The translations under genes and the position numbers were made by a program. Below, piece after piece: positions 4,751 to 63,963 of a stretch of 64,000 nucleotides of DNA. This DNA comes from Sphaerolaimus hirsutus (lineage: Eukaryota; Nematoda; Chromadorea; Monhysterida; Sphaerolaimidae), in NCBI GenBank assembly GCA_964036195.1, contig OZ038453.1:3797469-3861468 (forward strand), written 5' to 3'. The notes under the pieces were generated by a model, which did not search any database, was not told the origin of the DNA, and worked only from the letters and a program-made list of their open reading frames with translations. Within the stretch, counting starts at the first letter, position 1. Each line of letters starts with the position of its first letter.

Positions 4751-7700
4751 ATGCATTTTATATTGCTACTGTCAGCCATCCTGATAAAGTCAGCATGGGG
4801 TAACTCAGGTGCCACTTCCAGACTCTGTAAAACACCTTGCAAATTTCAAATGTCAAATGTATCAAAATGCATGAAAGTAACCATATTTGCGTTTTTACAG
4901 GGCATTTTACATGACATTTGAGACTTTACATGACTCCTGACACTTTGCACAACATTTAGCATTTTTCAGGCAATTTTACATGACATTTTACAATTTACAT
5001 GACTTTCGACACTTTGCATGACATTTTACATTTAACATGGCATTTTACAGGGTCTGAGAGTGCCCCCAGATTGCGGAGTGCCTGACAAGTCCCACCCACC
5101 TTCAGTTAAAATTTCTGGTGGTAAAATCACTGGTCTAACACAAGGCATCCATGGGGGCCAGGAAGCAGAACCACATTCATTTCCTTGGATGGTTAGTGAA
5201 GCCACAGATTCGACACTTTCGGACAAGGCGACGGGCAGTTGGCAAAGCGCCAGCCGCGTCACTACCGCCACTATTCACTGTTTATTGCTTTACAGTGTCA
5301 TGCCCACACCAGGTGGCAATCCCAAGCCCTGTAAAGTGTAAAGTAAAGTGTCAATTGTGTATCCAAACCTCAGTTTTAGTATCCAAATCGTATGTTTCTT
5401 TGTATCCAAATCTTATGTTGCAAAAGAAGATTTGGATACAAAGCCATAAGATGTGGATACGAAAAAAATAAGATTTGGATTCACACTTGACACTTTACTT
5501 TACATTTGTCACTTTACATTTGACATTTGACATTTGACTTTGCATTTGACTTTGCATTTTACTTTGCATTTGACTTTGCATTTGACTTTACATTTGACAC
5601 TTTACTTTACATTTGACATTTGACTTTGCATTTGACTTTACATTTGACACTTTACTTTACACTTTACAGGGCTTGGGACTGCCCCCTGAGTTTTGTGGAC
5701 AGTGGAGTTGTTCATTTGAGGCAAAATATAATGTGACATCTCCAAAAGTGCGACCCCTAAAAATGTGCCAAAATCAAACAATTATCAAAAGAAAAAGTTT
5801 AGAAGTTAAAAAATACTAATAAACACCTTTGCACACAAGTTCGGCACCACTGCAGGCGAGCATGGGCGGCTGCGGGGCTGCATTGCTGAACGCGCAGTGG
5901 CTGGTTACAGCTGCACATTGCGTAGGTGATAGTAATCGGTAAGACTACATTTTACAGGGGGCATTACTGTAACAGACTCTGTAAAGTGTAAAAGACCTGT
6001 AAAATGTCATATGTCATGTAAAAGACCCTGTAAAGTGTCAAGTGTAATCAAATCTTATTGTATTGTATCCAAATCTTATGTCCAAAAGTAAGATTTGGAT
6101 ACAAAAACATATGACTTGGACGCGATACAATCATATTTGGATACACATGACACTTTACAGAGTATTTTACATGACACCTGAACTTTACCAGGGTATTTTA
6201 CACTTTACATGTTTTTTTTACAAACATGGACTGAAATATTGCGAAAGCCATCACAATTATTTTTTTTTTCAACCCAGTAAAGTTGCCAGAGGAGTTCGCG
6301 TGGCCCTTGGAACGCACCTGAGATACCCGGTGGATCAAAGTGAATGGGTGAAGATCGGTGAAGTTATCGTCCATCCCAAGTATGAGGGTGCGTGCAGAGG
6401 AAACGGACACGATATTGCACTAATGAAATTGCCCGAGCCTGTTAAGTTCACGTGAGTTGAGTCTGTTTGGTTTTACATAAATTAGTTTTCGACCGGAAAT
6501 TTGAAACTTCATAAATCAGCTCTGGGGTCAGTCCCGCAAGTTGACAAGTACTTAACTCTTGACTCTTTACTTCACTCTTGACTCTTAACCAGAGTTGCGA
6601 AAGCGTATTTACGCTTACCCGAAATACCCGGGTAAATGGGTATTTATACTTACGCTTACGCTTACGCTTTCATAAAATACCTGTACGCTTTATTACGCTT
6701 TCCCGGCTGAATTACCCGGGTACTAAAAGCGTAAAAAACTTTTCACACGGCCCAGTTTTACGGTTTTCAAAAAGCGTGAAACTACAAAAAAAAACAATTT
6801 GAACGACAATGCGTACCAAAAAAAAAATACTGCGTGTGTGCATAAACACACTGAAAATGGCGGCACATGTACAAATTGTGCTAAAATTCTGTCGCCTGCA
6901 ATATCGTGGCGTCAGACTATTAATTTTTGGGGCGACGATGGATTTTGTCACCAGCACTTACCGTATTACCTCGAAATACCCCTGTGGGGGTTTATTATTT
7001 CGCCAGCAAAATTTCAGGGGGGTTAATTCGAGGGGGGCTTATTCGAGGGGTTTTTATTATTTCCCGAGCTAATTTTGAGGGGGCGGGGGGATGGGGTTAA
7101 TTCAAGGGGGCTGGATAATTCAAGGTAATACGGTGGGTCCCAGTTAGATGAAGTTGTGTTGTTATGTGTGATCGTATTGATGAAATGATGTGAAAAAATG
7201 AATGGAAATAATATATAAAGTCGTCTAAAAGTGAAAGCTAGGGTGTTTCCCAATGCTCAACAGCAGGAGCACTTTCTAGAAAAAATTTTACGCTTACGCT
7301 TTTTTTACGCTTTCCTGAGTATTTTAAAAATACCTTACGCTTTTAGTATCTATACTCAAAATTTGGAAAGTGTATTTATGCTTACGCTTACGCTTTCCAA
7401 AAATACCGGTATTTTAACAACTCTGCTCTTAACTTATCCACTTGCTGAATCAGCACCAAGGGGAGAGGGCAGTCCCAAAGTGCCAATTGTGTATGATGAA
7501 CATAACATTTGGATACACCAACATAAGATTTGGATACACAAACACAATATTTGGATACACACGCATCAAATTTGGATACACAAACATAACATTTGGATAC
7601 ACCAACATAAGATTTGGATACACAATTGGCACTTTGAGAATGCCCCCTGGTGCCGATTCCAGAGGTGGAAAAGTGAAGAGGCAAGAGTTAAGTACCTGTC

Positions 7701-10700
7701 AACTTGCGGCACTGGCCCCTGAAAGCATTCGAGTTGACTGGAATGCAGTGGCTGTAAAATTCAATTGATCGGCATTAAAAATAATTCATTTGGCTAAACT
7801 CAAATGCACTCAAGGCTGATGTATGAGTTTACGACATTTTGGTGCTTATTCTGACATGTTAAATATAATCGATCGTTGTGACAAAATTCGCAGAGATAAG
7901 ATAAAGCCATTGTGTTTGCCGCAGAAAACAGATGACTTCAAAACTGATGGAGAAAAGCTCATAGCAAGTGGTTAGCTAGGATTGCTCTACATGCACATAG
8001 TTCACTGCCGAAAATTCAAATTCTGTTCTCGCATAAAATGTTGGATTGAATAAGATTTACTGTGAATCGAATGGAATCCATTCATTCAAATTCGAAATTA
8101 ACTTAACAATTTTAACGAAATTTGAAATTGGTACGTAAAGGCCGAATCACTGACTCCTTTCATGTCTGCCGAGTTTATTAAAAACTTACAAATCAGCTTT
8201 TAACGCATCTGAGATCCGAATAACAGTTAGCATTCAAAAAATAACCTGTGATTTATATTTTCGAAAATCACAATAAATATAAATAACCCGTGATTTATAT
8301 ATATTTATATTTTTTTCAAATTCTGAGTGATATATTTATATATATTTTTCAAATTTGAAAAAAAATCACTGAGAAAATCACTCATACATTGTGGTGCAAG
8401 TATTGCGCTTCATGACTAAAACATGTAATTTGTGCAAGAGAATTTGTATTTTGTAAGAGAATTTTCACCTGAAAATCTCTCATCTGCTCATGTAGAGCAT
8501 TATTGAGTTAAAATAGTGTTTGAAGCAGGTAAATATTGTGCCTACGCACACTAGTTTTCACCATGACTTTTTGAAAACTGAAATGGCCAAAAATGGTGAC
8601 ATGTCACCATCCAGTTTTCCACAATAGAATGCTGTAAGTGTTCAGTTTTCACATATAGCGTGAATTTCAGTGGGGTTGTTTTGGCAACTGTGCCACTGTG
8701 TTTACCACTGTGTTTACCTAATGTGAAAACTCAAATGATGACAAATGGTGATATCACCATCACTTAGTCTTCATTATGTGTGTGACAAAGATGTTAACTG
8801 TTTTAGTTACTTTTTGTGTCATCCTGCTATGAATTGTATTGTCACGTTTTAGTGTATAAAGCATCTCTCTATTTTATAACATACTTTTCTGAAATAAGAC
8901 ACAACATTGAATCAAAAATACCTGCTTGATGTCATCAAAAATGATCTACAGTAATTGAAAACTCACTTCACCACTTTTGAAAGCTGGCAACACTTGGTGA
9001 CATCCACCAATGTTGCCAGTTATCAAATATGGGGGACAACTGTGGGAAACTGTCACCATGGTGTCACAAAAATGTCACCAAAATTTTGCCAAACATGTAG
9101 CCATGTGCCCTGAGTTTTCACAGCTCACCACTGTTGAAAAAGTAGCTTTATAAAACACTAGATGATTGCATGAAGTACTGCATTTCCTCTAAATACCCCC
9201 TCAAAATGGACACTTTGAATTTATAACCCCCCCCCCCCTGGTTTAACCCCCCTCAAAATTCTCACTCTGAAAAAATAAACCCCTGGGGGTATTTCAAAGA
9301 AATATGTGAATTCACACTAAATTAAGTGAATTTGCACTAAACTTCCTCGGCATACCTGGCACTGCTGCAAGTACTAAGCACCTATTTAGTCAAACATCAC
9401 TGCCACAACCAGGCACTATAGGTTAACTGCAACATGTTTGCAGTGCAAAATGTTTTTGAAGTTGTCATTGAGGTTGTAGGTTGAATTTTCCTGTTGTGGT
9501 ATTTGTGTGATATTTTCACTTGTCAAAATTGTATGAAATGAATACTGCTTGTGAAACAGTAATAAATAGATTGTGGGATGTTAGAGTACATTTTTGTGCT
9601 TGCAAATAGTAAATAAAGCCTGCAATAGCCCACAATTTTGCTTGTAATTGAAATAAACCGCAAGTGATTTTTTTGTGATTTTTTTTTAGCTTAGAGTTAT
9701 TTTTTCAGTGATTTAATTATATTTTCTGAAGGCCTTGAGTGATTTATATATATTTATATTTTTTCCAAGTTTGGGGTGATATATTTATATACAGGGGTGG
9801 GCATCTTCAGTTACCGCTGGGAAAATGCGATAGATTGAGCTACGGTTGAGCTATCAGAATGAAATTTTAACACAATGGAGTAGACTCCATAGGACACCTA
9901 TTCTGAAGTTTGCAACCCAAACGGCCACATTTTGGGTGAGTTGTGGAACACACGGTTTTTAGTGTAATTTTGTGACTTGGCGTCACCCATAGGATAAATC
10001 GAGGGTGGCATTTGAGGGGGGGGGGGGGCATCGGTCGTTGGTGTCGTCCAATTCTGTCGTACATCGGCCGATTTTGATGCCCTTTGAGTATGTTGTTGTC
10101 GCGCCTACTACCAAATTCTTTTTTTACTCGAATAGTCCCCCAGTCCCGAGATAAGGGGGGTGAAGTCACAAAATTACACTAAAAACTGTGTGTTCCACAA
10201 CTCCTCCAAACTGTGGCCGTTTGGGTTGCAAACTTCAGCATAGGTGTCCTATGAAGTCTACTCTATTGTGTTAAAATTTCATTGTGATAGCTCAACTGTA
10301 GCTCAAGCTATCGTGTTTTTCCAGCGGTAAGTGAAGATGCCCACCCCTGTATATTTTCCAAACAATTGGTGATTTTTTTGAATGCTAATAACAGTTGACG
10401 GAGATGGAAAAAATAGCTCATTCCGGTAAAATCGAGTGCGATAAAATCAGAAAAAAAGTTTTCCAAATTTCTTAAAATTTCGGTAGTTAACTAGTGCGTT
10501 TAGGCACAATCTTTTATATGACACAAAAAATTTCAGTGAATATGTTCACTTCATGTCCGCAGGTTGGGGAAACACAAAACTACATAAAGATCCAGCTGAA
10601 CGTTTACAACAAGCATTATTTAAAACGTCGTTGACTCTTTGCAAGAAACATTACTTTGCCTGGTGCCACTCCTAGATCCTTTAAAATGCTCTGCCAAATG

Positions 10701-12877
10701 TCAAATGTTATTTATGTAAAGTGTCTGAAGTCATGTAAAATGCCCAGTAAAATGGCAGCACTTTACATTACATTTGACACTTTGATCTGGGAAAATGGCA
10801 AATGTAAGTTGACACTTTGCATGACATTTGACATTTTTCAGGGTATTTTACAGGGTCTGTGAGTGCCTCCAGGGGTTTTGCCAATGCTGACATTGAGTTC
10901 TGTGGATTTGGTGGTCAGGATTAGTGATGGAAAAAGCGCCAGGACTTTGGCGCCAAGCGCCAAAAGCGCCATGGCGCTTTTCCGAACCCCAGCGCCAAGC
11001 GCCAATGGCGCCAGAGCAAAATGGCGCCAAGCGCCAAAAGCGCCATGGCGCTTTTCTAGACCACGGCGCCAAGCGCCAATGGCGCCAGAGGATATTGGCG
11101 CCAAGCGCCAATAGCGCCAGCGCCAAAAATTTTTTGCTTCTCATATATGCAGCCATGCTGATGCACTGCTATTAATTTGTTTTTGGCGCAAGATACAAGT
11201 CATAGTCAACTGCAGTCACTTTTGTTATTTTTGTCTTAATATTTTGCAGCTGGGTGTTTGGGCTTAAGCATAGCACACCATCTGTAAAAAGTGCTAAGAT
11301 TTTTTAGCTGTTTTTTAAAATTACTTTTGAATTTAGTTGTTTTTTCCCAAAAATAATTTTCAAATGAAGTTTTCAATTAAAAAAAAAATACTTTTGATTT
11401 TTCTACAAGAATATTGCAGTTTCAAGTTTTGCTAGTCACTTTTGAACATAGGATTTTGAAGTTTCAAATTTTGGATTGCCATTGTTGGAATGGCTTCAGA
11501 AAGTGATTCCACACCCTGTAAAATCAAGTGTCAAATGTCAATAAGTAAATGTGATGTAAAATGTTAATCAAAATAAAAAAATTAAATTTTTGATTGAACT
11601 TTTGACATTTCGCATGATACCTAACAAAGTTGTATTTATGAAATATTGGATGATGTTTATTACTCAACTTCACACTTTTCAGGGTCCTTTGACCCTGCTC
11701 AAACAAAACTGCAAGGAACGAGCTCAGTATAGCGATTGAGCTAAAACCTATGTGAAGAGTGTTACGAGTCTGATGAATAGTCACATAAAGTCTTACATAA
11801 TTCTGATTAGATGGGACAAATGTTGAATACCCATGCAATCACAAGGAAATTGTTTATAAAGTAATCAAGAATAGGGTATGTTGATCCGGGAATACACTGA
11901 CAGTAGCACATAAATACTTATGTAAATTATACTTAACAGGTCTTTCTGCATAAAATAATGATGAATTTTGAGTAAACTTCCTGGCGCTTTTTTGGCGCTT
12001 TTTAAAATCCTAGCGCCAAGCGCCAATGGCGCCACGGAGTCATAGCGCCAAGCGCCAAAGGCGCCATGGCGCTTTTCCAAACCCCAGCGCCAAGCGCCAA
12101 TGGCGCCACAGCAAAAAGGCGCCAAGCGCCAAAAGCGCCATGGCGCTTTTTGCTTTGGCGCTAGCGCCAGGCGCCAGCGCCATGGCGCTTTTCCATCACT
12201 AGTCAGGATACTAAGATTACCGCGTGCAAGGTAAAGTTTCAGACATTTATTTCGGTTGACATGTCGGCACATAAAAATTTGGAAATAAAACAGTTGTACC
12301 GTATTTCGTCTAATAAAAGAGCGCCGTTCTATTTTGTCGTCAACTCTTTTACCTGCCATTCTTGTGGATTTTTTTGAATTTATTAATTGTAAATGTCATT
12401 TTTTTCTGATATCTACACAGGGAGGTGTAAAAATGAGCAAAAGTCAAAGTGAGACTCATCATTATCCCTACCCATTGCAACTTCTATCACTCCCGCTGCC
12501 ATTTTTGCAACCGTTTCAATCGTTTGAGTGGTTTTTGCGTTTTATACACCCCAAAAATTATCTCATTTACGTTTTCTGTACTCGCGTACTTTCAAAAAGT
12601 ACGCGAGTAAATAAGTACCGGTATTTTTTCGGGAGGAAACGTAAACGTATTTACTACGCAGTACTCGAGTATCCATATTTATCGAGTAAACGTAAAACAA
12701 CTGTGCTTTTCACTCTCGCAGGGGGACAGTGGGGGTCCTCAAGTGGCCTACAGAAATGGGAAATACGTGATAGCTGGCGTCAATTCCTGCGGCCAATGTG
12801 AAGACTACAATGTGCCGGCAGTTTTTACGCACGTGCCCGACTTTGTCGATTGGATAAATCAGCATATTTCAACATAA
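4751..12877 (+). CDS. Secreted chymotrypsin-fold (S1A) serine protease, 8 exons
   Basis: Exons: 4751-4808, 5070-5191, 5856-5938, 6278-6451, 7894-7970, 10563-10662, 10873-10921 plus 12210-12230 (one exon split by a transposon), 12722-12877. All phases agree and give about 279 residues. The start begins a signal peptide, MHFILLLSAILIKSAWG. The mature end is IHGGQEAEPHSFPWM (residue 46 on), preceded by TQG rather than the usual R/K, so activation by a trypsin-like cut is not obvious. The triad is His81 in LVTAAHC, Asp133 in HDIALMKL and Ser231 in GDSGGP. The primary specificity position before the catalytic serine lies in ITACKGDSGG: Thr, not Asp, so specificity is probably not trypsin-like. Expected role: extracellular proteolysis. 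Two introns are transposon-derived, and a hAT-like element interrupts exon 7. If that element is not spliced out, this allele is null. Confidence 0.88.
4809..5069 (+). mobile_element. Introner-like inverted-repeat element forming protease intron 1
   Basis: The element coincides exactly with the intron. The left end GTGCCACTTCCAGACTCTG is the donor and the right end GGGTCTGAGAGTGCCCCCAG is the acceptor. The two ends are inverted repeats of one another, continuing into TGTAAAA and ATGTCAAATG motifs. Excision joins the signal peptide exon to the mature chain in phase 1. Confidence 0.87.
5313..5690. mobile_element. Introner-family element lying inside protease intron 2
   Basis: The left end GTGGCAATCCCAAGCCCTG and right end CAGGGCTTGGGACTGCCCCC are near-perfect inverted repeats. 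The interior is made of TTTACATTTGAC repeats and a hairpin around ATTTGGATACAAAG. It sits within a larger intron, so its splice-like ends need not be used. Confidence 0.8.
6590..7419. mobile_element. hAT-like MITE, CAGAGTTG family, TSD CTCTTAAC
   Basis: The ends are CAGAGTTG and CAACTCTG. The perfect 8-bp target duplication CTCTTAAC lies at 6582-6589 and 7420-7427. The interior carries ACGCTTACGCTT-type arms and the CCGTATTACC element at about 6961-7132. An 8-bp duplication and CAGRG-type ends are typical of hAT elements; no transposase is encoded. Confidence 0.87.
6961..7132. mobile_element. Nested MITE, CCGTATTACC family
   Basis: The ends CCGTATTACC and GGTAATACGG are inverted. The interior shows GGGGGTTTATTATTTCGCCAG and related runs. 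It lies inside the hAT-like element at 6590-7419, which itself lies inside the element at 6522-7722. Confidence 0.65.
7454..7654. mobile_element. Small inverted-repeat element with ATTTGGATACAC array
   Basis: The ends GGGCAGTCCCAAAGTGCCAA and TTGGCACTTTGAGAATGCCC are inverted. Between them is a run of about six imperfect 22-bp units containing ATTTGGATACAC (about 7505-7622). The same ATTTGGATAC word appears in the interiors of the elements at 5313-5690 and near 6065-6150, which links the families. Confidence 0.7.
8228..10387. mobile_element. hAT-like element, TAGCATTC ends, TSD ATAACAGT
   Basis: The ends TAGCATTCAAAAAA and TTTTTTGAATGCTA are inverted. The perfect 8-bp duplication ATAACAGT lies at 8220-8227 and 10388-10395. 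The 2.16-kb interior is AT-rich, has no open reading frame with recognisable similarity, and contains the nested element at 9792-10349. It fills most of protease intron 5. Confidence 0.85.
9792..10349. mobile_element. Nested foldback hAT-like element with CAGGGGTGGGCA ends
   Basis: The ends CAGGGGTGGGCATCTTCA and TGAAGATGCCCACCCCTG are perfect inverted repeats. The inverted arms continue with mismatches for about 200 bp each way. The CAGGGGTGGGCA terminus is a common hAT-superfamily end. The target duplication cannot be fixed because the flanks are TATATA repeats. Confidence 0.8.
10663..10872 (+). mobile_element. Introner-like element forming protease intron 6
   Basis: The exon ends TTTGCCTG, the element begins GTGCCACTCCTAGATCC and ends GGGTCTGTGAGTGCCTCCAG, and the next exon begins GGGTTTTGCC. 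Removing the 210 bp gives an in-frame join (phase 2). The ends are inverted repeats of the same family as 4809-5069 and 35538-35729, with TGTAAAATGCCC and ATGTCAAATGT motifs inside. Confidence 0.87.
10922..12201. mobile_element. hAT-like element inserted in protease exon 7, TSD GTCAGGAT
   Basis: The ends TAGTGATGGAAAAAGCGCC and GGCGCTTTTCCATCACTA are inverted. The perfect duplication GTCAGGAT lies at 10914-10921 and 12202-12209. The arms consist of GGCGCCAAGCGCC arrays (10940-11125 and 11985-12190); the middle 850 bp is AT-rich and non-coding. The flanking bases are protease coding sequence on both sides. Using the GT at 10924-10925 as donor and the AG at 12201-12202 as acceptor, the element could be spliced out and leave three added codons in frame. 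Confidence 0.9.
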
Positions 12878-17710: not shown

Positions 17711-20700
17711 TTGAAGGTGTGGGATTTGATAGCGGTAGTTTTGGTGAATATGCTACCCGCAGCCATGCCAGAGATACTAATAGGTACAGACATTATGCCG
17801 TATCTGAAACTATCATGGGTGATACCCCTGGCTTTGGAAAAAGACACAAAATTCCCGCCAATAGAAATCCCAGCTGAAAGGGAACAATTTGAAAATTTAG
17901 AGACCACATTTTTAGACAAAATGAAAAAAATAATCAGATTGAAAAAACGACTCTTCATACCAGCTAGAAGTCAAGCTCAACTACCTGTTCAATTGCCAAG
18001 AAAACCCAAGGAGATGTCAAACGCACAATGGGCTCAGTGCACATTCATTTTTGACAACACTACTTTACCTGACACAAATGGAATTAATATGTATAATACC
18101 ACTGTGCGCGTGACAACACCTCGTGCCTTTTTGACACTTTTCAACAACTCTGACATCCCAATCGAATTGAGCAAAGACACAGCGATCACTCAATGCTGTG
18201 TCATTGATAATTCGTCAATATACTTTCCTGGACCAAAATTCTCAGCGATTTTCAAAAACGATACTTTTCAAACAGCCATTGGAATGCGCGGCGACATTAG
18301 AAACGCAATTGCGACACCAGCCATTCACTTACCAAAGCCTCCTGATGTAGCGGAAAACGTTCAAGCACCTTCTGCTAAATTAACGCAACAGCAACAATAT
18401 GAGTATATATGGGAACATTAGTCACATGACAACAGAATCACTTTATCCTTGGAGGAATTACACTCATTTCAAAAATTACTTTTTGAATACCACGACATTT
18501 TTGCTTGCAGTGAGTACGACGTTGGCAAAACGCCATTGATTGCACATCGCATAGATACAGACCCAAAACATCCACCTATAAAACAAGCTCCACGTTATGA
18601 GGCACCTCACAAGCACGATTTCATCCACAAAACTGTGAAAAGCATGTTGCAAGAGGGAATAATAGAACACTCTAATGGGCCATGGGCATCACCAATAACC
18701 ATTGCGCCCAAGGGGACAGACAATTTCCGTTTTTGCGTGGATTTTAAAATGGTAAATTTAATAACAAAAATTGACTCTTATCCACTGCCACGGATTGGTG
18801 ACATTTTGGCTGAGTTTTCCGGGCGGAAAATATTTAGTGCCATCGACAAATGGCATGGATACTACAATATACCGCTAGCTGATGAGGATTCATGCAAAAA
18901 AACAAGTTTTGTGTGTAGCCTCGGACAGTTTCGCTACACAAGAATGCCGTTCGGTACCTGCAACGCAGGTGCGACTTTCATGCGTCTCATGCAGCTGATT
19001 CTCATGGATCTTAATGAAGATCTGAGCCGTGCATGGATACGAGCATACATTGATGACGTGCTCACATGCAGCGACACGGTCGCTGAGCATTTGCAACATT
19101 TGTGCCGACTCTTTACGCGCCTCAGGTGGGCCAATCTGAAAATGCAGCCCGCAAAATGCAACTTTTTCACATCAACGTTGAAGTACCTGGGACACCAGAT
19201 ATCCGCTGCTGGCATCGCGCCAGCATCGTCACGCGTCGCTGCCATGTTAGCTTTGCCCAAAGTGCATACAAAACAAGATTTGCGAAAATTTCTGGGAAAG
19301 TGTGTATACTACTCACACTTCATTCCCAATTTTAGTCGAGTGGCGGCACCACTATATGCGGTGTTGCGTGGCAAAGTGCCAAAACATGGTCAAACTCCCT
19401 TCGAATGGAAGAGGACATGTTGGATTCATGGAACACACTCAAATATTGTATTGGCTCGCCTCCAATATTGATACATCCACAGCGTGACGGACGACCATTT
19501 ATCCTAGAAACAGATGCAAGTCAAGTGGGGCTAGGCGCAGTATTATCACAATACGGCACTGACGGAAAATTACACCCAATCTCATTTATTTCCAAGCGTT
19601 TGACTCATCCACATAAGACTTTTTCCGCTGCAGAGCTGGAAAGTCTCTGCATTGCATGGGCAATCAGGCGACTCGCCGATTTTGTTGAGGGGCAGCGTTT
19701 AATTGTGATTACAGACAATAGCGGCATACAACAGATTTTAAAGAGCCCGTCGCACAGTAAACTTGAACGTTGGGCTTTATACGTGCAGTCTCGCGTCATG
19801 AAGTTCATACATCGATCGGCGCAATACAATTGCATGGCTGACGCCCTTTCGAGAAATCCTATCGACGAACCTGAATATGGTCAAGATGAGTTGCATGTAC
19901 CCACAGAGTTGATCCGCGGTATGGTGCTCAACACCACACCAGGGTTCCACCTCACAGGCCCCACTCATAAAGCCAAAATAATTACTCAGCAGGTGGAATT
20001 TGACTGGAAAACAGCTCAAAACAACGACCCTGAGTTGGGAATGATAATTGAGAAACTAAGACAAAATCCAGATGAATTTCCTGACGCACTAATAATTGAT
20101 GATGTATTGTATCATAAAACTCCATGTGGCGATGATTCATACGCCATCTGGCCCCCCATAAATTGGCAACAGGCTTGCCTGGAGCACGCGCACATGGGAA
20201 CTTACGCCAGTCATGGTAGTCAAGAAAAAACTTTGGATCTATTATGTCAATACTTCGCATGGCCTGGTATGCGCGCACAGATTTTGGATTTTTGCCAACA
20301 ATGTTTGGAATGCATGCAGAACAAACGTCACACTCTCAGGCCACACCCATTGGGGAACACTGAAACCCCAACACAACCTTTTGATGTGATGCATTTTGAT
20401 ACAATGCAGTTTGAATATAACAATCGTAAGGCCAAGGTATTCGTGGCTGTAGATGCTTTCACATGTTACGCAGTGACTTTCCCTTTGACGTCAGCTCGTG
20501 GGAACGCGGTAGCGAAAGCTGTTCTAAAAAATATATTTTTGGTGTATGGAGCGCCAAGATTAGTAATCACTGACCAAGGCACAGAATTTTTGAATTCCGA
20601 TTTCCACGCCCTTTGTGAAAGTTTTGGCGTCAAACACACACCTGTATTGGCACACAACCCCGCAGCCAATGGGATGGTTGAGCGCGTAAACGGGCGATTA

Positions 20701-21159
20701 AGAGATATTTACATGTTTGCCCGCCAACAGCACCCAAAAACTGACTGGAGGGAGCTTTTGCCGTTGGTTACCTTAAAATACAATTTGTCAATGAACAAGA
20801 ATTTGAGTTGTTGTCCATTTTTTGTGATTTTTGGCCACTTACCGCATTGGAACCTGTTTTACGTGGCGGCCAAACAAGATAATCCTGATTTGATTCGCAC
20901 GGTCGCTCGGAATCAAAGCGAGCGGAATCGGGATCGCTATAAAAAGTACTTTGACAGCAAACCGAACCGGAGCATGGAAGTGGGCGATATGGTAATGGTG
21001 CGACAACTTTCGCCTGATAAAACTGTACCACGTTTTCTGGGACCCTTTCGAATTGTTGATATATGTGGCCCCAACTTATCATTCCAACATGGTGAAACCC
21101 TGGAAACTGTTCCAGGGAGATATTGTTGGAAAGTGGTACATTTATCTCCAGGAAAGTAG
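17711..21159 (+). pseudogene. Degenerate Ty3/gypsy pol (protease tail, RT, RNase H, integrase)
   Basis: Order: end of a retropepsin (ILIGTDI near 17775), RT with HSNGPWASPI, FSAIDKWHGYYNI and an active site reading AYIDDV (near 19045), RNase H (TDASQVGLGA, ELESLCIAW, ITDNSGIQ, ADALSRNP), integrase zinc region with CQQCLECMQ near 20290, and integrase core (VMHFDTM, ITDQGTEF, GMVERVN). Breaks: a TAG at 18419-18421 with the same frame continuing after it, and a one-base frameshift near 19405-19420 at the RT/RNase H border. The gag and the protease active-site region are missing upstream; non-element sequence and the Harbinger copy lie there instead. It is likely a 5'-truncated, inactive copy of a different lineage from the pol at 1-1695. 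Confidence 0.88.
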
Positions 21160-27863: not shown

Positions 27864-30548
27864 ATGCCTGACACTGAAGCAACTGCCCCTGGAGGCTCTG
27901 GGGTGACGGACCCCCCAAAAATTGTCTGACAAGTCACGTACACTGAGTGCGAACTCACACAAAAAATCACCGAGTGGACCCTGGCCTCGGATAGGTGGTC
28001 ACTATTGAATGCGGGAAACTCAATAAACCAATACCGAAAAGACAAATGGCCAAAATTTAACTCACCGTGGAAATATGGCACAGAGGTGCTTGCAAAAAAA
28101 GTATTGAAGCTGGCAGAAAAATACTTCAGTACCACAAAGGATGACCACATCACAATGGAAGACCCAGAAGGGGATTCCGATGATGATGCGGACAAAGATG
28201 CATCTCCCATAATTCGCCCTGGTGCAGGGGCAGTGCAACATGCAGCATATGTTCCCACCCCACGACGGGAACTGAAAGCAAATGTGCGATCAATGGATAT
28301 GTCTGCACTTATGACTATGGTGCAGCAACTAATGCAACAGCAGCAGCAAATGAATGCACGAATTGATCAACTAGCCAGCACGTCAACACAGCAGCCCAAG
28401 CAGGTGCTAAGCCCTGCACCAGGCATCCCACAAATGACTGGCCAAATCACAGTAACCCCGCAATTGGCCAGTTCACAAAGTGGGCTGAGAAGTGACCCTT
28501 GGACTTGGGAAACAGATGATCGATTGGCAACATTGCCACAAGGGTCCATTTTGGAACGCATGATTGCATACATGGAATGCTTTGCACTGTTGCCAGATGA
28601 TGGACTGCCACGTTTGAGCATGCAAACCATACCCCAGGATCAGATGAGCGTTGGCCATGTTGCATCGGCAGCGAGCAAACAAATAAAATTTGACGGAGAC
28701 CAGAAAAGCAAAACCGGCCCATTCAAATTCTGGCTCCACATGGTCATGCAACAATCAATGGGTGTACCAGAAAGCCAGCAGCAATTATTTTGGAACATTG
28801 TGTTCCAACAGTGCCTGATAGATGATGCCCAAGACAGATACATGAGCATCAGAATCGCTAGGCGCCATGACATTCTGTATGTGGTGGACAAATTGATTGG
28901 AATTTACCGTCTTGACCACCAAGTATACTCAGTGGTGGACTGGTATAATTTGAAAGCCACTGCAGGGGAATCAGTCACAGCCCTGTACACGCGCCTCTGC
29001 ACAAAATTCTATCACATTACTGAAAGGCTTTCAGACAAGGACCGTGAACAAATGATTGGGGACAAATTATTCATTGAGGTGCCCAAATTGGTCCCATCGT
29101 CCTGCTGGTACATGTGGAGGCAACGCTGGACAGAAAATGGTTGCACACTAGACATGGCAGTAACAATGATGGAGGCTACATGCAAAGAGGTGGAAAGGAA
29201 TTGCGCACAGTGCAAGGAAGAACAGAATCAGAGGCAGCACCACCAGTACAGTGGAAATGAGAATGGGCAGACAGAATGCCACAATGCCGATCAAAGTAGA
29301 CAGACAAAGCAAAAAGTGCAAAGCACCATAGCAACAAATGGTGAGCAGGCCAAAATATGTGCCACTTTTGACCCGAAAACACACAAAGGGCCATGGTGCA
29401 CATACTATCTGCACGGAGCTCCAATGCCCCATGACCCATCTGAATGCTATGTAGACGGCAAATCACCAAAGTTCCGACCAAGCCGAGCAGAAAATGCGCA
29501 GCGCAACTTGACCAGACGAAGGCAAACTGACAAAGATGCGAAGCAAAACATGGAGAAAAAGTGCAAGGAGCTGAATATTCCATTCCAGACGGACAGCTCA
29601 GCAAGTCGGTGCACCCAAGCAGAGTATGAGGCAGAGTATGAAATATATGGGGCTGAAAGCGAAAATGAAGAATGGGGTGACCTTGACAGCTGGATCCCCA
29701 CGATTAACAGCACAAAATATGGTGAAGAAAGCCATGGGGCACTCACAAATTCACCAGACCCAATGGCTACAATAGTGTTCCAAGGAGTCCCGATCACCGG
29801 GCACATTGACACATGTTGCCATATTGGCCTGTTCATCGAAGAATTGACATTGGAGGAAATGTGGGCCAAATCAGCTCTTGACCCAACACAAGAACGCGCA
29901 AAATTCAGACCGTACACTGGCAGCGACATCCGAACATCGGGAAACATCATCAAAGGGGAATGGCTCAGAACTTATGACATGTTGGTGGAGCACACTACCC
30001 CAGATGGAGTACGGCACAAAGATATGCTGCCAGCAGTGGTGAAATTGTGTGAATTTTTGCCACCTGCAGACCCATTGCTGATTGGCCAAACAGCAATTTG
30101 GGGGCCACTGCAAATAGTGCGAACAGCACACAAGGAACTGGAAAGATTGTCAAAGAAATACAAACAAGAAATGGGAACAAAATTGAGACAGGGCAACACA
30201 AATGTGCTGCAAGCCCAGAAACAGCGAGAGGGACTGAAGGTGCCCACAGTGGTGGCAGCCAGATGCACACCATACAAGCCACCAGGGCACAAAACAAACC
30301 AGAAGCACATTCCCTCCACACCTGAAATCGCCAGCCACAAGGTCGCAGCCATGTTGAATGCAAGAAAACAAGGCAGTAAACACCACTCTCGCATATTTTG
30401 GAGTCAGAATTTCCGTAAAGTGTCCCACCTGATTAACACAAATGCAAATGATTCAACTCATGCAAAGAGCCCGCTGCCAAGTGCCCATGCCAAATACATG
30501 ACATCATCCTACCACCATCTACCCCGCCAATTCCAGTCATTACACTAA
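27864..30548 (+). CDS. Gag-protease polyprotein of the LTR element
   Basis: The ATG at 27864 opens 21 codons, then an in-frame TGA (27927-27929), after which the same frame stays open to 30548. Either the first part is joined by a 45-nt GT-AG splice (27906-27950 fits in phase), the TGA is read through, or translation starts later. Domains: a Gln-rich coiled segment (MQQQQQMNARIDQLAS, near 28335); a retrotransposon Gag capsid-like domain (about 28690-29200: FKFWLHMVMQQ ... VVDWYNLKATAGESVTALYTRLC); a Cys/His knuckle WCTYYLHGAPMPHDPSECY (29395); and a retropepsin-like domain with GHIDTCCHIGLF (about 29800) and LLIGQTAIW (30075). The protease keeps the catalytic Asp-Thr, but Gly of DTG is Cys, so it may be inactive. 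Function: particle formation. Confidence 0.85.
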
Positions 30549-31164: not shown

Positions 31165-31742
31165 CCAGTGTGCTGCTTCTTCATTTAATTCACACATTGG
31201 CACATTTTATTCACCAACATTTATTTATCCCATTTTTTTGGCCAACCAAAAAATGAAAAAATTTGTATGGGAGGCTCCCCTGCGGCCACATCAAAGCAGC
31301 TACAGGGGTCCCCCCAGGGGTTCCTGTAGAGAAATGTGCGGGCTACATTTTGATGTGTGTGGCCCGCCATATATTATTTTCGTTGCGGAATGAAAAGTGA
31401 TTCAATTTTTTTCCAAAATGTCCCATTATTTTTGTCCGGCACTTTACACATACTTTTTGAGTAAACGTAAATACGTTTTAACAACTATGGCGGCATAAAG
31501 CCACCCTAATCTACAAGAATTCATTCCATATAAACTCCAGCAACATTACACCTGACAACAAAAATTTCATCATATTTATCAAATTGCTTTGATATGATGA
31601 AAAAATTTTATGTTTGTTCTTTTATTCAGATGTGATATGGTAGATTTCGTTGTAAGGTGTACACTGAATTTGGGGGGTATTTCGAGGGGGGGTATTTCGG
31701 GGGGGGGGGGGGGATTTCGAGGAAACACGGTAAAAAAATATC
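31165..31742. other. Foldback and palindrome relics, no gene
   Basis: 31270-31385 contains inverted repeats around GGGGTCCCCCCAGGGGTTCC, with the ends GGCCACATCAAA and TTTGATGTGTGTGGCC. 31530-31665 is a diverged copy of the palindromic element at 42738-42925 (ACATTACACCTGACAA ... TTGTAAGGTGTA). 31675-31732 is the right end of a CCGTATTTCC MITE. Confidence 0.5.
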
Positions 31743-32513
31743 AGGGGACACTCCCAGACCCTGTAAAAAAAACCCGTAAAAGACGCTGTAAAATGTCATG
31801 TGTCATGTAAAAAAACATGTAAAAGACCGTGGAAAGTGTCAAATGTCATGCAAAGTTAAAAAATCCTGTAAAAGACCCTGAAATTGTTATGCGAAATGGA
31901 AAAAACGCAACAACAAAAAAGAAAAAAGAAAACAGAATGATATTCGACAAGAATTGACTTGGATATTGTGACGGATCACGATGCCGAATCGGGGTTATCA
32001 ACCTATCGGGAACGGCAAAATTTTGGGGTGGTAAATGATTAGAAATTAAAACAATGATTCCGCCTTCATCTGGCAGGTTGATTTGTATGGAAGAGTCCCC
32101 GTATGTAATCTTGGCAAAATGCCAAAAAAGTCGTTTGGATAGACTCGTTAGTACACGCACAACACATAAATACGTCTGTACTAGTGTGCCCCATTAGCGA
32201 CCATTTCCGGTTACTTGATCGTATTGCACGGTCATTATTGGTAAAGTTGACGTAAATTCTGCGTCATTTACTCTCATTCATACAAGATTCACATGACATT
32301 TCACAGGGTCTTTTACATGACACATGACATTTCACAGGGTCTTTTACATGACACATGACATTTCACAGGGTCTTTTACATGACACATGACATTTCACAGG
32401 GTCTTTTACATGACACATGACATTTCACAGGGTCTTTTACATGACACATGACATTTCACAGGATGTTTTACACTTTACAGGGTCTTTCACAGGGTTTGGG
32501 AGTGGCACCAGGG
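31743..32513. mobile_element. Introner-family inverted-repeat element with internal tandem array
   Basis: The left end CAGGGGACACTCCCAGACCC and right end GGGTTTGGGAGTGGCACC are inverted repeats of the family found in introns at 4809, 10663 and 35538. Its right part holds a 31-bp tandem array (32290-32465). It lies outside any gene model, so it is a free copy. Confidence 0.75.
32290..32465. repeat. 31-bp tandem repeat, about 5.5 copies
   Basis: The unit CATTTCACAGGGTCTTTTAC plus ATGACACATGA is repeated almost without change. There are no spacers, so this is a minisatellite and not a CRISPR. It lies in the right arm of the element at 31743-32513. Confidence 0.85.
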
Positions 32514-33115: not shown

Positions 33116-36100
33116 ATGAAAGTGCTCACCAAAGTTGTTAAAAGTACTGAATTTTTCAAAGTAAACGTAAACATAAAGTATTTTATTTTACTCACCCCTG
33201 AGTACAGAAAATGTAAAGTAAACATTTTTCAATTCTACACTGCATAGGAGGTGAGTCACTGTAAAATAAAGTATTTTTATTCAGGGAAAACGTAAAAGTG
33301 AGTAAGTATCTTTGGATTTTGTAGTCAGGAAGACATGCTAAGTGAGTAAAAGCAAAAGCGAGAGTTGTCAGATTGTAAAATTGCCACAGCGTTGACCATT
33401 TCTGCTTTTATGACCATTTTCGCAGCAGTGTCAATTTGTTTGACTCATTTTTATGTTACACACCCCATTTTCCTGTACTTAAATACTTTCAAAAAGTATG
33501 CATCAAGTTGAGTAAATATGATTTTTCCAGAGGGAATGTACGCATATATACACAGTACTCGAGACTCGAGTATAAGTATTTTTACAATTAAAAGTAAATA
33601 CATTTTACCAACTCTGGTGCCCACACTAACAATCATCACAGTCCTACTACTAGGGTTGCAAATCCAACAGAGTGATTCGAGGGGTGGCAGAGGGGGTGGC
33701 GGCAGGGGTGGCAGCAGGGGTGGCGCCAGGGGTGGCAGTAGGGGTGGCAGCAGGGGTGGCTGGGGTAGCAGCAGTGGCAGGGGAAGCAGGGGTGGCAGGG
33801 GAGGTGGTTAGTTATGGTGTAAATGGCAAATAGTGTCCCTGTGCTGGCAACTAAGGATTGCAAATACTCTAAAAAAGTATAAAATGTTTTGTTTTTTCCA
33901 AAACAAATTTTCGAAATTTCAAATTTTTTTCTAAATATATACAATTTTTTTATTTTTTATTTGAATTTTTGAATCTTTTTGAGTAGCACATCTGCCAGTG
34001 CGGTGCCATGCCCCTTTTCAAAGGGTGCCTTTACATGCTGGCACCAGGGCCAATGTGCACCAAGAAAAACACCAGCCAAGTTTCTATTGGCTGTTAGATT
34101 ATGACTAAAGCAAGTGCTTGCTTATTAGGTAATATTTAAAATGGCAATATCAATACCCAACAGTTTTTAGTCTATTGTGGATAAAACCCTCATACTTAAC
34201 ATTAATTCCACTGTTTTTTCCACAATTTGTTCTCAGTTTATAGTGGCTCCAACCAGATAACAATATACACCAACGTTCTACATTTTCCAGAACTTTTTGA
34301 CAGCAAATCTTCTCACACAGGATCGGGGAAATCATTCAAGGGTTTCTTTGGTGGAGGCAGTAGCAAAAGTGCCAGCAAAAGTATATGGACAACTAGTACT
34401 AGAAGTAAACCGAGGACTACCTATGTAGGAAGGTACGTTTTGGGGTGACTGCTGTTTGAAACATGGTGAACACACACATATGTATTGAATGCAGAAACTC
34501 ATTGAGTTTCTGTGTTTTTGTTTAACACAGGAACACGGAAACTGGACAATTTTGAAAAACATGGAAACTCAAATGAATTTTTTCTGTGAACACAGAAACA
34601 CTGAAAACACTGAAACACTGAAAACTGAAAATGTTTTTTGAGTTTTTTCAGGCATATGATTTTAATTGAATGAGTGCAGTGAGTGAGTGAGTGCATATGT
34701 AGATTATGTACTCTATGCATGCATGTATAGTATGTAAATATGTACATAAAGTATCCAGTTAAATGACGAAGTAAGTATTCAAACATGAATAAGACACAAT
34801 GCTTGAATAAGACAACCCCTTGAATTACATCCCCCTTGAATAACTATGTATGTGTGGGGTGTGATGCTATGTGGGGTCAAAACGTGTGCAACCCTACGTA
34901 ACCCTATGGGCAACCCTATGGGAAATAATTTGCTTGTTGTGATATGGAAAACCTTGTATAAAGAAATTACAATAGTATTTCATTTCTGTGAGGTATGTTA
35001 AAAGTATGCATGCCCCACATTGAAAGCCTTTTTGTTAGTGTGTCTTACTTTTTCATGGCATTTTCATTGCACATAAAATTTTAATCCTTTTGCACATCAT
35101 GAATTTTAGACATTTTCAAATGTTCCATCACTCTCTTGAACTCACAGTTATGTTCATTTTAAGCACCACTGTTGCTGGAAGCAATGTCCAATGATGATAT
35201 GAACTACATATTTTCCTAGATACCATTCAAGGTTTTGACTGTAAGTTATTTCTTGAGCATGGCTCAACCAGGGAAATGTCATTCACAGAATACCTCCTGG
35301 TGGCAGTCCCAAGAACTGTAAAGTGTAAAGTAAGGTGTCAAATGTCATATGTCTAACATCATGTCATGATTGACATTTTACATGACATTTGACACTTCAC
35401 TTCACACCTTACAGAGTTTGGGACTGCCCCCAGCTGGTGAAAATAGGTGATTATTGAAGGGGTTACAAGAGATGTGACTTTGTGACATTATTCATTATAT
35501 TTTACTATTTACAGGAACACGTTTGCAGTTGGTTCAGGTGCCAGTCCCAGACCCCGTAAAATGCCCTGTAAAAGGTCAAATGTCATGTAAAGTGCCAAAA
35601 GTCATGTAAAATGCCCTGCAAAATGGCAACTCGGTTGCCATTTTGCAGGGCATTTTCCATGACTTTTGACGATTTGCATGACATTTGACATTTTACAGGG
35701 CATTTTACAGGGTTTGGGACTGCCCCCAGGTGTTGGCTCAAGGACCAGCTCCAACAACATTGTCAAAGGACTCCTGGCTGCGAATTTGGTGAAAAGTGGT
35801 AGCAAAGGATTTGTCAAAGCCCATCCCACTGGTGGTGGCTTATTCTCCAGCCCATATTATTATGGTTATTATAGTGGGAGGCAATATTATTACAACAGTT
35901 ATGGTGGCAGATCATCTGGGGTAAGTATTTGGGGCTGGGATTGAATGGAATTTATTTTAATGCGGTTTTATTGAGTTATGCTGGTGGGGGTGCACACTGC
36001 CACACTGGTGAATGTTTACTAAGAGGAAGAGGGAGCCCAGTGCCATTACGCATCTAAACCCATTATGCATGTAGAACTGGCCCGGCACTCATAAACTATA

Positions 36101-60011: not shown

Positions 60012-63000
60012 TCAATTTTCACAATTACCATTTTCCATGTGGTGTTCTACCTGTTGCGCTGGAGCCTCCTCCGGTGGCAGTGGGATGGCCTCAACCGCGT
60101 CGTGGTGCTCGGGCGGCGGCGAGGGGGGCTCAGCTACGTTCTGCAGTGCCATGGCCGCCATGTCGTTGCTAATGGGGGAATATTCTTCATTAGGGCGGTA
60201 AACTGGCTCAACAACGGGCACTACTTCCTCCACCACCGGCACAACTTCCTCCCGCGCGTCCGCGGAGGAGTCAGAGCCCGAGGAGGCGGTTTCAATATTG
60301 GATAAAACTTCCGCCTGCAGTTCTTCTTCAAGGGCCGGGTATCTATCCAGTCCGACTAGTTCTTTCAAGTCAGCCCGCGGGCGCCATTCCGGTGGCCAAA
60401 ATCCCAGCACGTTTCCCCAGATTTGGCCCGATTCATAAGAGTAAATTCGGTCGGCCTTGTGCTCGACCGTCAGAAACCGGTGGAAAAAAGTTGACCACAA
60501 CATGGTCTCGGCATTGGCCACCACGATGCGCACGCATTTGGCGCTGGAGGTGGCTACGTTTCCCCGGGGCAACTCTGCTACAAATCCAACTCTACCGTAC
60601 GCCTTCTTGGGATCGGCATCCAGCTGGGCGGAGTCGGTTGGCGGGCTGCCGCGCACACAGGAAATGATGACCACTTGTGCTTTGTCGGCGGTAATTACGC
60701 GGGTGGCCCAGTAGGCCGCGTCGTGTTCTGTATGGGCTACTAGTCGACTGATTAGGGCGCGCGCCTGCGCCGCATAAAAGCACACAATTAGCAAACTAGC
60801 GGGATCTGTGAGATCTGCCCAGGGTAGGGTGGGATCTTCTTTCACCGTGGCCACGAGGTAGTCGTACAGGTGCAGGATGATGCGTAGTTCCTTTTTGTTG
60901 ATAATGGACATGCCTTCTTTCGATTCGCAGCCCTGGTGCACCAATGTCGATGACAGCATGACGCCGTCCTCGAAGTCGCCAGGCGAGGGCAACATGGTGG
61001 CGCCGTGCACTGCTGTGTCGTTGTAGGCGCGTAGCAGTCCATTGTACGCCGCCACAGAGTTAGCCTGAATGAGCTGGCGATGCCCGCGGAACACTGTTTC
61101 CAAGTGAACCACGGGACATCGTTGATATTGTGTTAGCCTATCAATGAGGGTGGGGTCGGGTTTCAGGACGGGCTCCACCCAGTCTTGCACGCGAATCATA
61201 CGCGTCAATTGTTTACTGTCTCCAAATAGAAGTAGCATGCCGTTCACTGGGAGCTGAGCCGCCTGAACCACGCTAATTACTGCAGCGTCAGATGCCAAAG
61301 ACGCTTCGTCAACAATTACCGCACACACCGTCACACTTTTTATACGGGCGTCGTGGGCGGAGTCTAAAGTGACATGGATTTGACCGGGCTGCACCACCTC
61401 CAAGAACACCCGGTGCAGCCTGACCATAGCCCTGACATATTTAGACAGCGCCCTACGCAGCACCTTACCCCAAAATCCCTGGTCAGCTAAACTAGCCTCT
61501 CCAGCCCGGGCGCCCGCCACGCCTGCCTCGAAGTCATCGAATGTCTGTTCGTCTCCATCTTCGGCAGTGAGAAATGGCACCTGTTCGGTCAGCTGCGCGC
61601 GTATAACGGCGTCGTCCGTGCAGTTGTTAATAATCTCGTCTACCAGCTCGTAGTCCTTCTTGGCGCCGTCGTACTTTTCCAGCGCTGCCGTCCATTCGGG
61701 GCTGAGGCGGACAATGTTGTGGCCGGTTCGCTGTGCTAGGGTGTGCAGGGTTGGTAATTGGGTCGCAGGGGTGGTGCTATAAGAGGGATCACTTTCCCAC
61801 ATGGGGCTCAAAACACGCACCGGAAATGCCTCTCTTAATTTCAAAAATTCTTCGAAACCCTCCAGTTTTTTCATTTCAGAAAATGGCGTATCAGCCATAT
61901 CGGTCCATTTCGCGCGTTCCTGCAACAAAACTTCCAAAGCCCCAAAAATATCCCGTTGCCCTAATTTATTCAGGTTGGTCAGGGCCCTGCGCGCTCCTTC
62001 GTCGGCTGCCGAGTTGAGCGTGCACGTGATGAGCGTCGAATGGTATTTGGCGTTCGGCTGCTTGTCTGATGGCAAGTCGGAGCCCGCGCGCACCCTGGGT
62101 CTTGAGTTATAGTAATTATAGCCGCGTGAACACACATACGCCAGTTGATTTTGTGTGGTCGTCTTCCCGGACCCGAAAGGCGAGTCACACATGATCAAAA
62201 GGGGTTTGCGCATTCGCACGGCTGTGATCACAGCTTCTAGAACTTCTACCTGTCCTTGTTGCAGCAGAAACTCACCTAATTTGGCCTGAATCATTTGTTC
62301 ATTTTTTCCCCTGAACAATGATTCGTACAGCTCATTAGCCTCGCGGCTAATTAGCGCCCAGTCAGTTTCATCATCCAGCAGACGCAAATTCAATATCACC
62401 GCTAATTGGATTTGCGCCTCCAGGGTGAGTACTTTTGACCCCTGAACCACTTTTGGCACCCAGCCGACCGGCGCTTTGTTCAGGGCGGCCTGCAGTGACC
62501 GCATGGTTCGGTCATAATTGGGTGAGTCGTTTGAGCCGCGCACCATGTACCTTCCACTCTCCAAGGTACGGGGCAGTGCTGATTGCGACGCCGCCATGTC
62601 CAATTTTGCACGCAACATTGTAGTGGTTGGCTCTGATTCCACACTGGTAATTCTCACTGATAAGTTGGGGCTGCCCGCCGCTGGTTTGTCTTCGTCTTGT
62701 CGGGCCTGCACCAAACTCAACACTGACATGGGCGTCGCTTGGTTCAGCAGCTGTGTCTGCGTATTAACCTGCTCCAGCAAACGAACGCGCTGCTCTTCTG
62801 GTCCCTCAAAAGTGTCAGCTTGTAATTCTTCTGGGTCCGGGCGGCGCACCATAATGTTGCATGCAGTGCCCTGCGGCGTGTGCTCCCAGAACACATGTGC
62901 GCACACATCCGTTGCGCGTTTCGCCCGAAACCGCAAAAATGACTCGTTGTAGCAGTGGGCCGCTGCTAAAATACTCAATTTGTACCTGAGAAATACGTCC

Positions 63001-63963
63001 ATACTGTCTCGGTTCTCTGTGTCCGGCTGGACGCCCGTTGTGCTGATGTCCTCGGCCGTGGCGACCTGCAACCTGTACGCATGGCCGTAAAATTTGTCGC
63101 CAAACACGTCCAAATCGTTCAGATCGTGATATTCGACATGGGCCAGTCCCAACTGTCCAGCACTCAAATTTTCCACAGCTGTCACTCACATACTCTCTGT
63201 GCAAAATGACCAACTTTTCCGGCCCGGCATCGCCCCGCTCCGCCGCGCCCAGCGGTTCCAAATTCTTGTAATTTGACGGCGTGAAGGCTGCTCGCAGCCG
63301 CGCCGTTTTCCAGTCGCTCGTATAGGGCTGGTAGCCGGAAGTGTCGCCGCGCGTCAATGTACGTGCCGCTTGAGTGACGCACCGCGTGCCCTGCATACTC
63401 ACTACCACTGGGGCGGCAACATTTAAGGGGCATTTTGTCTGATTACCCCATATCGCGACGCCGGTGAACTCCCAGTACCTCGGGTTTTCTATTTTTTGTG
63501 CGATCGCGGTCGCCGAAAAACGCATTCCGTGGCGCACCAGGGGCAGAAACATCGAGGGGTGCTGTTTCTGAATTCTCGCGCACAAATCCACCAGCTGGGT
63601 GGTCCGTTTGTCTCTAGCCTTGGCCCGCTTATTCGAGTAGTAAAAATACGGATACGCCTCATCCGCATTCACCCACTGCTCGTTTTCGCTGAGTATCGCC
63701 ATCGTTTGCTCAGAAATTCTCACATGGCACTGATACTCAACATGCCCGTCGGCGCCCGTGTCAATATACACTCAATCTACCCAACCTTCAAATTTCCCTC
63801 TGCTGGGGTAGATTTCCGGTCCATTTTGCATCTGCTGCGCGCGGTAAAGTTGTCGCGGGGGAATGGTTCCACCGCCGCAGGCACCGTGTGTATTTGTCTC
63901 CTTGGATTTGATGGGCGGGGCGTCTGCACCTTCAAATGGGCGTTTGCGAGAGGCCGAAGCCAT
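60012..63963 (-). CDS. UPF1-like superfamily 1 helicase, three exons, about 1287 residues
   Basis: Exons (minus): 63781-63963, 63190-63729, 60012-63152. The introns are 51 nt (GTAGAT...TATCAG) and 37 nt (GTGAGT...GGACAG), both phase 0. Splicing them removes an in-frame TGA and a frameshift and gives one frame. N-terminus MASASRKRPFEGADAPPIKSK looks like a bipartite nuclear signal. About 540 residues without recognised domains precede the helicase core. Core motifs: Walker A SPFGSGKTT (nt about 62183-62157), Walker B VIVDEAS (near 61310), motif III LLLFGDSKQLTR (near 61230), a motif V-like ITADKAQVVIISCVRG (near 60680), and motif VI position GNVATSSAK, where the usual TRA arginine is absent. 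The C-tail is acidic and Pro-rich. Expected: ATP-driven RNA/DNA unwinding or translocation. GC content is visibly higher than in neighbouring host genes. Confidence 0.82.

Follow-up and report, generated by a model that had tools for sequence, protein, structure and literature searches.

The protease gene and its first intron

The window analysed here, a 64,000-nucleotide stretch of the Sphaerolaimus hirsutus genome, carries a protease gene on its plus strand, and reading this gene across its further introns yielded a complete 279-residue trypsin-like protein, a 1,288-bp insertion including its repeat being omitted from the reading. The best PDB match of the protein was elastase 1bru (E 3.5e-33), and the alignment covered residues 39-277 with chymotrypsin and residues 47-277 with elastase. 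The features of the gene are given below; exons were placed by gene reading, with any further basis in brackets.

4751..4808, plus strand, protease exon 1, signal peptide
4806..4808, plus strand, left copy of the CAG target duplication, end of exon 1 (sequence; target duplication rule of the family)
4809..5066, plus strand, introner copy E1, GTGCC...GCCCC, forming protease intron 1 together with 5067-5069 (matches family copies)
5067..5069, plus strand, right copy of the CAG target duplication, 3′ splice AG (sequence; target duplication rule of the family)
5070..5191, plus strand, protease exon 2 (also paralogue L007)
5313..5688, plus strand, copy E2, 5′ CAG and 3′ CTG, within protease intron 2, not an exact intron
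5856..5938, plus strand, protease exon 3
6278..6451, plus strand, protease exon 4
7894..7970, plus strand, protease exon 5
10563..10662, plus strand, protease exon 6, portion preceding E5 (also PDB match)
10663..10872, plus strand, introner copy E5, exact intron, 5′ CTG and 3′ CAG, splitting a Trp codon where the chymotrypsin fold has its W-G
10873..10921, plus strand, protease coding sequence past E5, resuming at 12210-12230 beyond a hAT-like insertion
12722..12877, plus strand, last protease exon

Positions 4809-5069, which start GTGCCACTTCCAGACTCTGTAAAA and end TTTTACAGGGTCTGAGAGTGCCCCCAG, constitute an inverted-repeat element with GT at one edge and AG at the other, exactly. In E1 proper (4809-5066), the first 28 bases matched the reverse complement of the last 28 at 21/28 positions in register, a score reached by 0/5000 dinucleotide shuffles (shuffle maximum, 18), and the element folded with a z of -4.5 against 100 shuffles, which bore out the inverted-repeat ends noticed in the first-pass annotation. 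Excision of 4809-5069 fused MHFILLLSAILIKSAWGNS to DCGVPDK in phase 1, placing a signal peptide in frame before the trypsin-like chain as had also been proposed, and the whole gene then read as the 279-aa protease.

The same annotation had equated the intron exactly with the transposon and had placed ready-made splice sites in the terminal repeats. The GT..AG bounds did fit 4809-5069, but the closing CAG (5067-5069) is the second copy of a 3-bp CWG target duplication, the first copy of which lies at 4806-4808, and it falls outside the terminal repeat. Likewise, the 5′ GT is supplied by the element, whereas the 3′ AG comes from the CAG target, and a CTG target leaves a TG end. The asymmetry claimed for the two ends was recovered as GTGCC (5′) versus GCCCC (3′), nearly constant among the aligned copies of the family.

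A paralogue of the gene, L007, located elsewhere on the same contig, has the identical insertion site for E1. Compared with E1, the interior of the L007 copy had blocks gained and lost, while both ends and the adjoining exons were conserved. This pattern is as expected for an established intron and suggests that the E1 insertion is older than the gene duplication; since it is common to a diverged paralogue, the insertion is judged not to be very recent. A further locus, L002 (G000:C4:3646594-3649855), is a partial, near-identical duplicate of the protease locus, and its match stops inside the introner near the 5′ end of the element, such that exon 1 is absent from the match.

Further insertions in the protease and a second gene

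Beyond E1, the window contains two more copies that are exact introns, E5 and E4. Removal of E5 rejoined a W-G that aligned with the W-G of both chymotrypsin and elastase. The same exon is interrupted at 10922-12201 by a hAT-like element with ends TAGTGATGG.../...CCATCACTA, flanked by an 8-bp repeat, GTCAGGAT, at 10914-10921 and 12202-12209. Inspection of this exon by hand found no simple GT-AG boundary for exact removal of the hAT-like element, and the protease allele that carries it may for this reason be damaged or else spliced differently. In protease intron 4, two inverted-repeat elements, one nested, were seen at 6523-7720 and 7459-7650, and their ends looked introner-like by eye.

E4 lies in a second gene, the surroundings of which are as follows.

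31742..32511, minus strand, copy E6, CTG/CTG, long variant, outside recognised exons, not an exact intron
35300..35433, plus strand, copy E3, 5′ CTG and 3′ CAG, within a larger intron of the second gene, not an exact intron
35515..35537, plus strand, second-gene exon preceding E4 (by hand)
35538..35729, plus strand, introner copy E4 including its right CAG, together an exact second-gene intron (sequence; exon frames by hand)
35730..35920, plus strand, second-gene exon following E4 (by hand)

E4 is a palindrome that matched its own reverse complement over 181/189 nt at 89.5%, and the palindromes of E1 and E5 are more decayed.

A large family with a CWG target

Searching the genome with the terminal repeats had been suggested as a check, and this was done for the 3′ repeat in the assembly that contains the window (348,482,957 bases in 762 contigs). 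When up to 2 mismatches were allowed, matches to the 3′ terminus GGTYTGGGASTGCCCCCAG numbered 7,740 + 7,690 = 15,430, compared with 0 + 6 for the reversed control, and the exact inner 3′ pattern without the last triplet gave 3,251 matches versus 0. The genome count of the 5′ CTG end was 1,207. Viral contigs had no match to the family 3′ end, and a prokaryote collection had 8, which we attribute to chance. Among 50 loci taken from exact 3′-terminus matches, a 5′ end was recognisable in 44 (at most 5 substitutions of 24), and the majority of the 5′ flanks of these loci ended in CAG or CTG.

The target was analysed in a sample of 54 copies (50 new loci and 4 earlier ones), which were the first places of the inner 3′ pattern in contig order all lie within the initial 6 Mb of a single contig and were chosen for an intact 3′ end. 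The W of the 5′ and 3′ triplets was T/T in 18 copies, A/A in 14, T/A in 4 and A/T in 2; 15 copies had another triplet on at least one side and one lacked a 5′ end. The base W was concordant between the two sides (Fisher p 4e-5), and CWG is therefore a target duplication. The base before the 5′ triplet was C in 27/43, and the first base after the element was G in 33/43, of the copies with a CAG or CTG at the 3′ side; thus, the preferred target is CCWGG. CTG targets were as common as CAG targets, and 21/54 copies ended in CTG. The family has both terminal inverted repeats and a CWG target site duplication, two of the hallmarks of a TIR DNA transposon or MITE; the duplication is 3 bp long, and no superfamily (e.g., PIF/Harbinger) is claimed. 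Two copies, L102 and L103, have CGG before the element and hence off-consensus targets, and their genes are lectin-like (by eye) and EB-module-like (a weak Pfam hit), respectively.

Copies as putative exact introns of conserved genes

Peptides translated from the joined flanks of the copies (50 peptides from 49 copies) were scanned in Pfam, several of them chosen by eye for likely homology; from one set of 32 open-frame peptides, 20 were scanned. A PDB set was searched with the joined peptides of L042, L051 and L104 and with the whole protease. Pfam hits above the cutoff that spanned the junction were obtained for 10/50 peptides, and the PDB set added two copies (E5 and L042). As listed below, 12 copies interrupt conserved domains, 12/12 in gene-sense orientation, 7 of them ending in AG and 5 in TG.

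Trypsin, E5: 3′ AG, sense, PDB
Na,K-ATPase, L042: 3′ AG, sense, PDB, gap-free
Acid lipase, L051: 3′ AG, sense, Pfam and PDB
CHGN, L020 first copy: 3′ AG, sense, Pfam
AMP-binding, L053: 3′ AG, sense, Pfam
Oscp1, L080: 3′ AG, sense, Pfam
STAG, L088: 3′ AG, sense, Pfam
AMPK gamma, L104: 3′ TG, sense, PDB gap-free and Pfam
CHGN, L020 second copy: 3′ TG, sense, Pfam
Oscp1, L079: 3′ TG, sense, Pfam
FERM, L004: 3′ TG, sense, Pfam
DNA primase large subunit, L072: 3′ TG, 5′ triplet CGG, sense, Pfam

Oscp1 and CHGN each have one AG-ending and one TG-ending copy. The AMPK gamma copy lies near 5,773,439 of G000:C1, and the two Oscp1 copies lie near 3,591,988 and 3,592,811. The protein homologues of the interrupted genes run uninterrupted at the junctions, and the protease paralogue L007 shares E1. 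Introners are recognised as similar sequences that serve as introns of unrelated genes with likeness reaching up to both splice boundaries, and the copies described here agree with this as predicted introns. The introner reading given to intron 1 at first pass is supported by the huge family, the coincidence of its copies with introns of unrelated genes and the nearly constant asymmetry of the ends. Weak or non-spanning Pfam hits were left uncounted (L014, LRR; L029 and L030, zinc fingers; L038, L084, L101 and L103).

Coding-likeness of the flanks was scored by codon statistics, for which the training loci were distinct from the sample, with two duplicate pairs among the 53 copies. Flanks were coding-like at 18/53 copies in the sense orientation and 0/53 in antisense, and at 19/352 random points. 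Open-frame counts alone were abandoned as a measure, as they gave 32/44 for sense and 32/44 for antisense and thus no discrimination. A candidate antisense exact copy in a GDT1 gene (L040) was also rejected, since removal of an ordinary GTAATA...TTTACAG intron around the element would connect DNTLG with FWHAFV in frame, by hand. The AMPK gamma protein (L104 and L117) was 41-56% identical to those of vertebrates, nematodes and annelids alike among the best 120 of 1,646 hits, which indicates an animal lineage with no near relation among those hits.

Predicted hairpin structure of the copies

The first arm paired with the last arm in 52/53 copies with both ends, and 100/1,060 shuffles passed the same arm-to-arm test. 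The median folding energy of the 53 copies was -0.59 kcal/mol per base, with a median z of -16 versus shuffles. The U of the 5′ GU was unpaired in 45/53 copies, as this is the point at which the two ends diverge (GTGCC versus GGGGC), and this asymmetry within a palindrome is consistent with selection for a 5′ splice site.

Copies that end in TG

A canonical 3′ AG is present in E1, E4, E5 and the CAG copies and absent at the exact boundary of the CTG/CTG copies. For four of the five TG cases (L104, L020, L079 and L004), all boundaries giving the same product were enumerated, and the end pairs read GT-TG, GG-CT, TG-CC and similar, with AG in none of them. A large class of GT-TG introns is therefore predicted.

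An alternative, which we hold to be unlikely, is that AG is indispensable: the CAG copies would be true introns, and the exonic CTG copies would be recent, harmful or heterozygous, or else imprecisely spliced via near AGs with few codons gained or lost. TG acceptors are indeed very rare elsewhere, 36 human genes being reported in PMC2374985. In 4/4 TG cases examined, at least one AG lay in frame no more than 30 nt away and was usable with the native 5′ GT: at +18 in L104, L020 and L079 (a loss of six codons), at -18 also in L104 (a gain of six codons), and at -9 in L004 (a gain of three codons); this frequency is near chance, about twenty in-frame positions having been searched per case. Any one of these cases may be spliced imprecisely, as GT-AG, through such a neighbouring AG. 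Measured from the end of the element, the closest internal AG was at 18 nt in L104, at 9 nt in L004 and, out of frame, at 19 nt in L020 and L079. Among the triplet classes, T/A copies were coding-like in 9/20 of a partly biased set and 3/4 of the 53-copy set and A/T copies in 0/8 and 0/2, respectively, a hint of a preference for AG. T/A copies also outnumbered A/T copies (4 versus 2 among 54); this was considered as a sign of selection for AG and set aside, the numbers being too few for a claim.

On the other hand, CTG/CTG copies were not depleted among coding-like ones (6/18 versus 4/14 for CAG/CAG, one duplicate pair in each), and five TG copies lie within conserved domains, e.g., those of AMPK gamma and the primase. 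In the consensus copy, the nearest inner AG is 19 nt from the end and would shift the frame. By our estimate, this alternative, extrapolated genome-wide, would further mean that a single reference has hundreds of conserved genes in a damaged state. The AMPK gamma gene (L104) retained its conserved downstream segments, where the splice signals that could be placed read GT or AG, and the codons that an alternative AG would drop from it are conserved. Given the conserved downstream segments of AMPK gamma, the conservation of its droppable codons and the lack of depletion of TG copies in coding sequence, the most likely fate of TG copies is precise removal by splicing.

A proposed mechanism

The reading that we consider probable is that protease intron 1 is a copy of a palindromic, non-autonomous, CWG-targeting transposon that is spliced out exactly, and that the CTG copies are removed as GT...TG introns. 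A non-autonomous, almost fully palindromic DNA transposon would insert at CWG, preferably within CCWGG, with duplication of three bases; that the element moved in this way, by transposition, is suggested by its ends and target. In gene-sense orientation, the element would contribute GTGCCA as the 5′ splice site along with a CCCC tract, the second CWG copy would become the last bases of the intron, and splicing would return the coding sequence exactly to its original state. With CAG as the target, a normal GT-AG intron would result, as for E1, and with CTG a GT...TG intron; the host would have to remove GT...TG introns as well, because CTG copies are about as frequent as CAG copies in conserved genes. 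From coding continuity, we infer that copies are spliced from RNA, with TG as a putative acceptor. Folded into its hairpin, the intron RNA would place the two exon ends side by side, and the hairpin, speculatively, may render a TG acceptor usable. In our estimate, it is as likely as not that the spliceosome of an animal accepts TG alongside AG as a matter of routine for a whole introner family, the hairpin aligning the exon ends and the acceptor being chosen by position (AG from CAG, TG from CTG); the positional role of the hairpin is the speculative part of this reading.

Programmed elimination at the DNA level, resembling that of ciliate IESs, would remove palindromic insertions between CWG repeats, if the assembled genome came from germline or mixed cells. 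Precise removal leaving one CWG would work without any splice site and equally on CAG and CTG targets, and full-length palindromes would suit excision. Such a process predicts no orientation bias, however, whereas coding-like flanks numbered 18 in sense and 0 in antisense, and the sole antisense case beside a conserved domain can be read by hand as lying inside an ordinary GTAATA...TTTACAG intron. Moreover, the 5′ end keeps GT where the palindrome would give GG, and we regard elimination from DNA as very improbable. Poorer still are the prospects of an old signal-peptide-boundary intron later filled by a transposon, with the ends of element and intron coinciding by chance: an intron close to the signal peptide is common in serine protease genes and the E1 insertion is old enough to be common to L007, but E1, E4 and E5 have no intron sequence outside the element on either side, and the same exact fit recurs in unrelated genes.

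Relation to known introners and non-canonical introns

Introners are a leading explanation of intron origin, yet few animals are known to have them. A survey recorded Introners in 175/3,325 genomes (Gozashti et al. 2022, PMC9860276). Families ranged from 5 to >2,000 copies, and the only two groups with Introners among animals and land plants were both animal groups (PMC9860276). It reports rare GC and GA 5′ sites, and its target duplication method speaks of GY/AG nucleotides; in Chrysochromulina, Introners carry their own 5′ site and co-opt the 3′ site from the target duplication (PMC9860276, Fig. 2 legend). Like the survey Introners of algae, dinoflagellates and others (PMC9860276), the family described here shows similarity reaching both splice sites, terminal inverted repeats and target duplications, with one site possibly derived from the duplication. 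Unlike them, its 3′ end occurs about 15,000 times (a subset of copies being shown as introns), its copies are near-full-length palindromes, and its target duplication gives AG or TG. Judged by this end count, the family greatly exceeds the family sizes given in PMC9860276, again with a subset of copies shown as introns.

The introner elements of Amoebophrya (PMC7789003) similarly have inverted repeats that draw the exon ends together, short direct repeats at the boundaries and non-canonical introns. Amoebophrya is a parasitic dinoflagellate, and its elements have inverted repeats of 8-20 nt and very varied ends, in contrast to the present animal family with arms of nearly the whole length and a fixed GT and CWG (PMC7789003). 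Mass deviation from GT/AG in an animal genome is also seen in the larvacean Fritillaria borealis (PMC13326754), where most introns deviate and this is linked to a duplicated U2AF; here, unlike in F. borealis, deviation is confined to the 3′ end of some hairpin copies, and the other splice signals placed in the same genes were GT or AG. The human TG 3′ splice sites are alternative sites of U2-type introns in 36 genes (PMC2374985), and they resemble the present case in TG as the end of a U2-type intron and differ from it in that TG is here the predicted regular end of a repeated family. Among the matches listed in open-licence literature on introners, non-canonical introns and TG acceptors, no such combined family was found. 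Introners are already known; what is new is the number of copies, the hairpin that spans the full length and the ends in TG.

Copies that differ in the target base W constitute a natural experiment on the need for a 3′ AG and on intron structure as its substitute. Methods that demand GT-AG would miss the CTG-ending copies (21/54 in the sample).

Other features of the window

Long retroelement-like ORFs, with a polymerase and integrase look by eye, occupy positions 1-1695, 17711-21159 and 27930-30548 of the window, and a 1057-aa open frame lies in a GC-rich stretch on the minus strand at 60012-63185.
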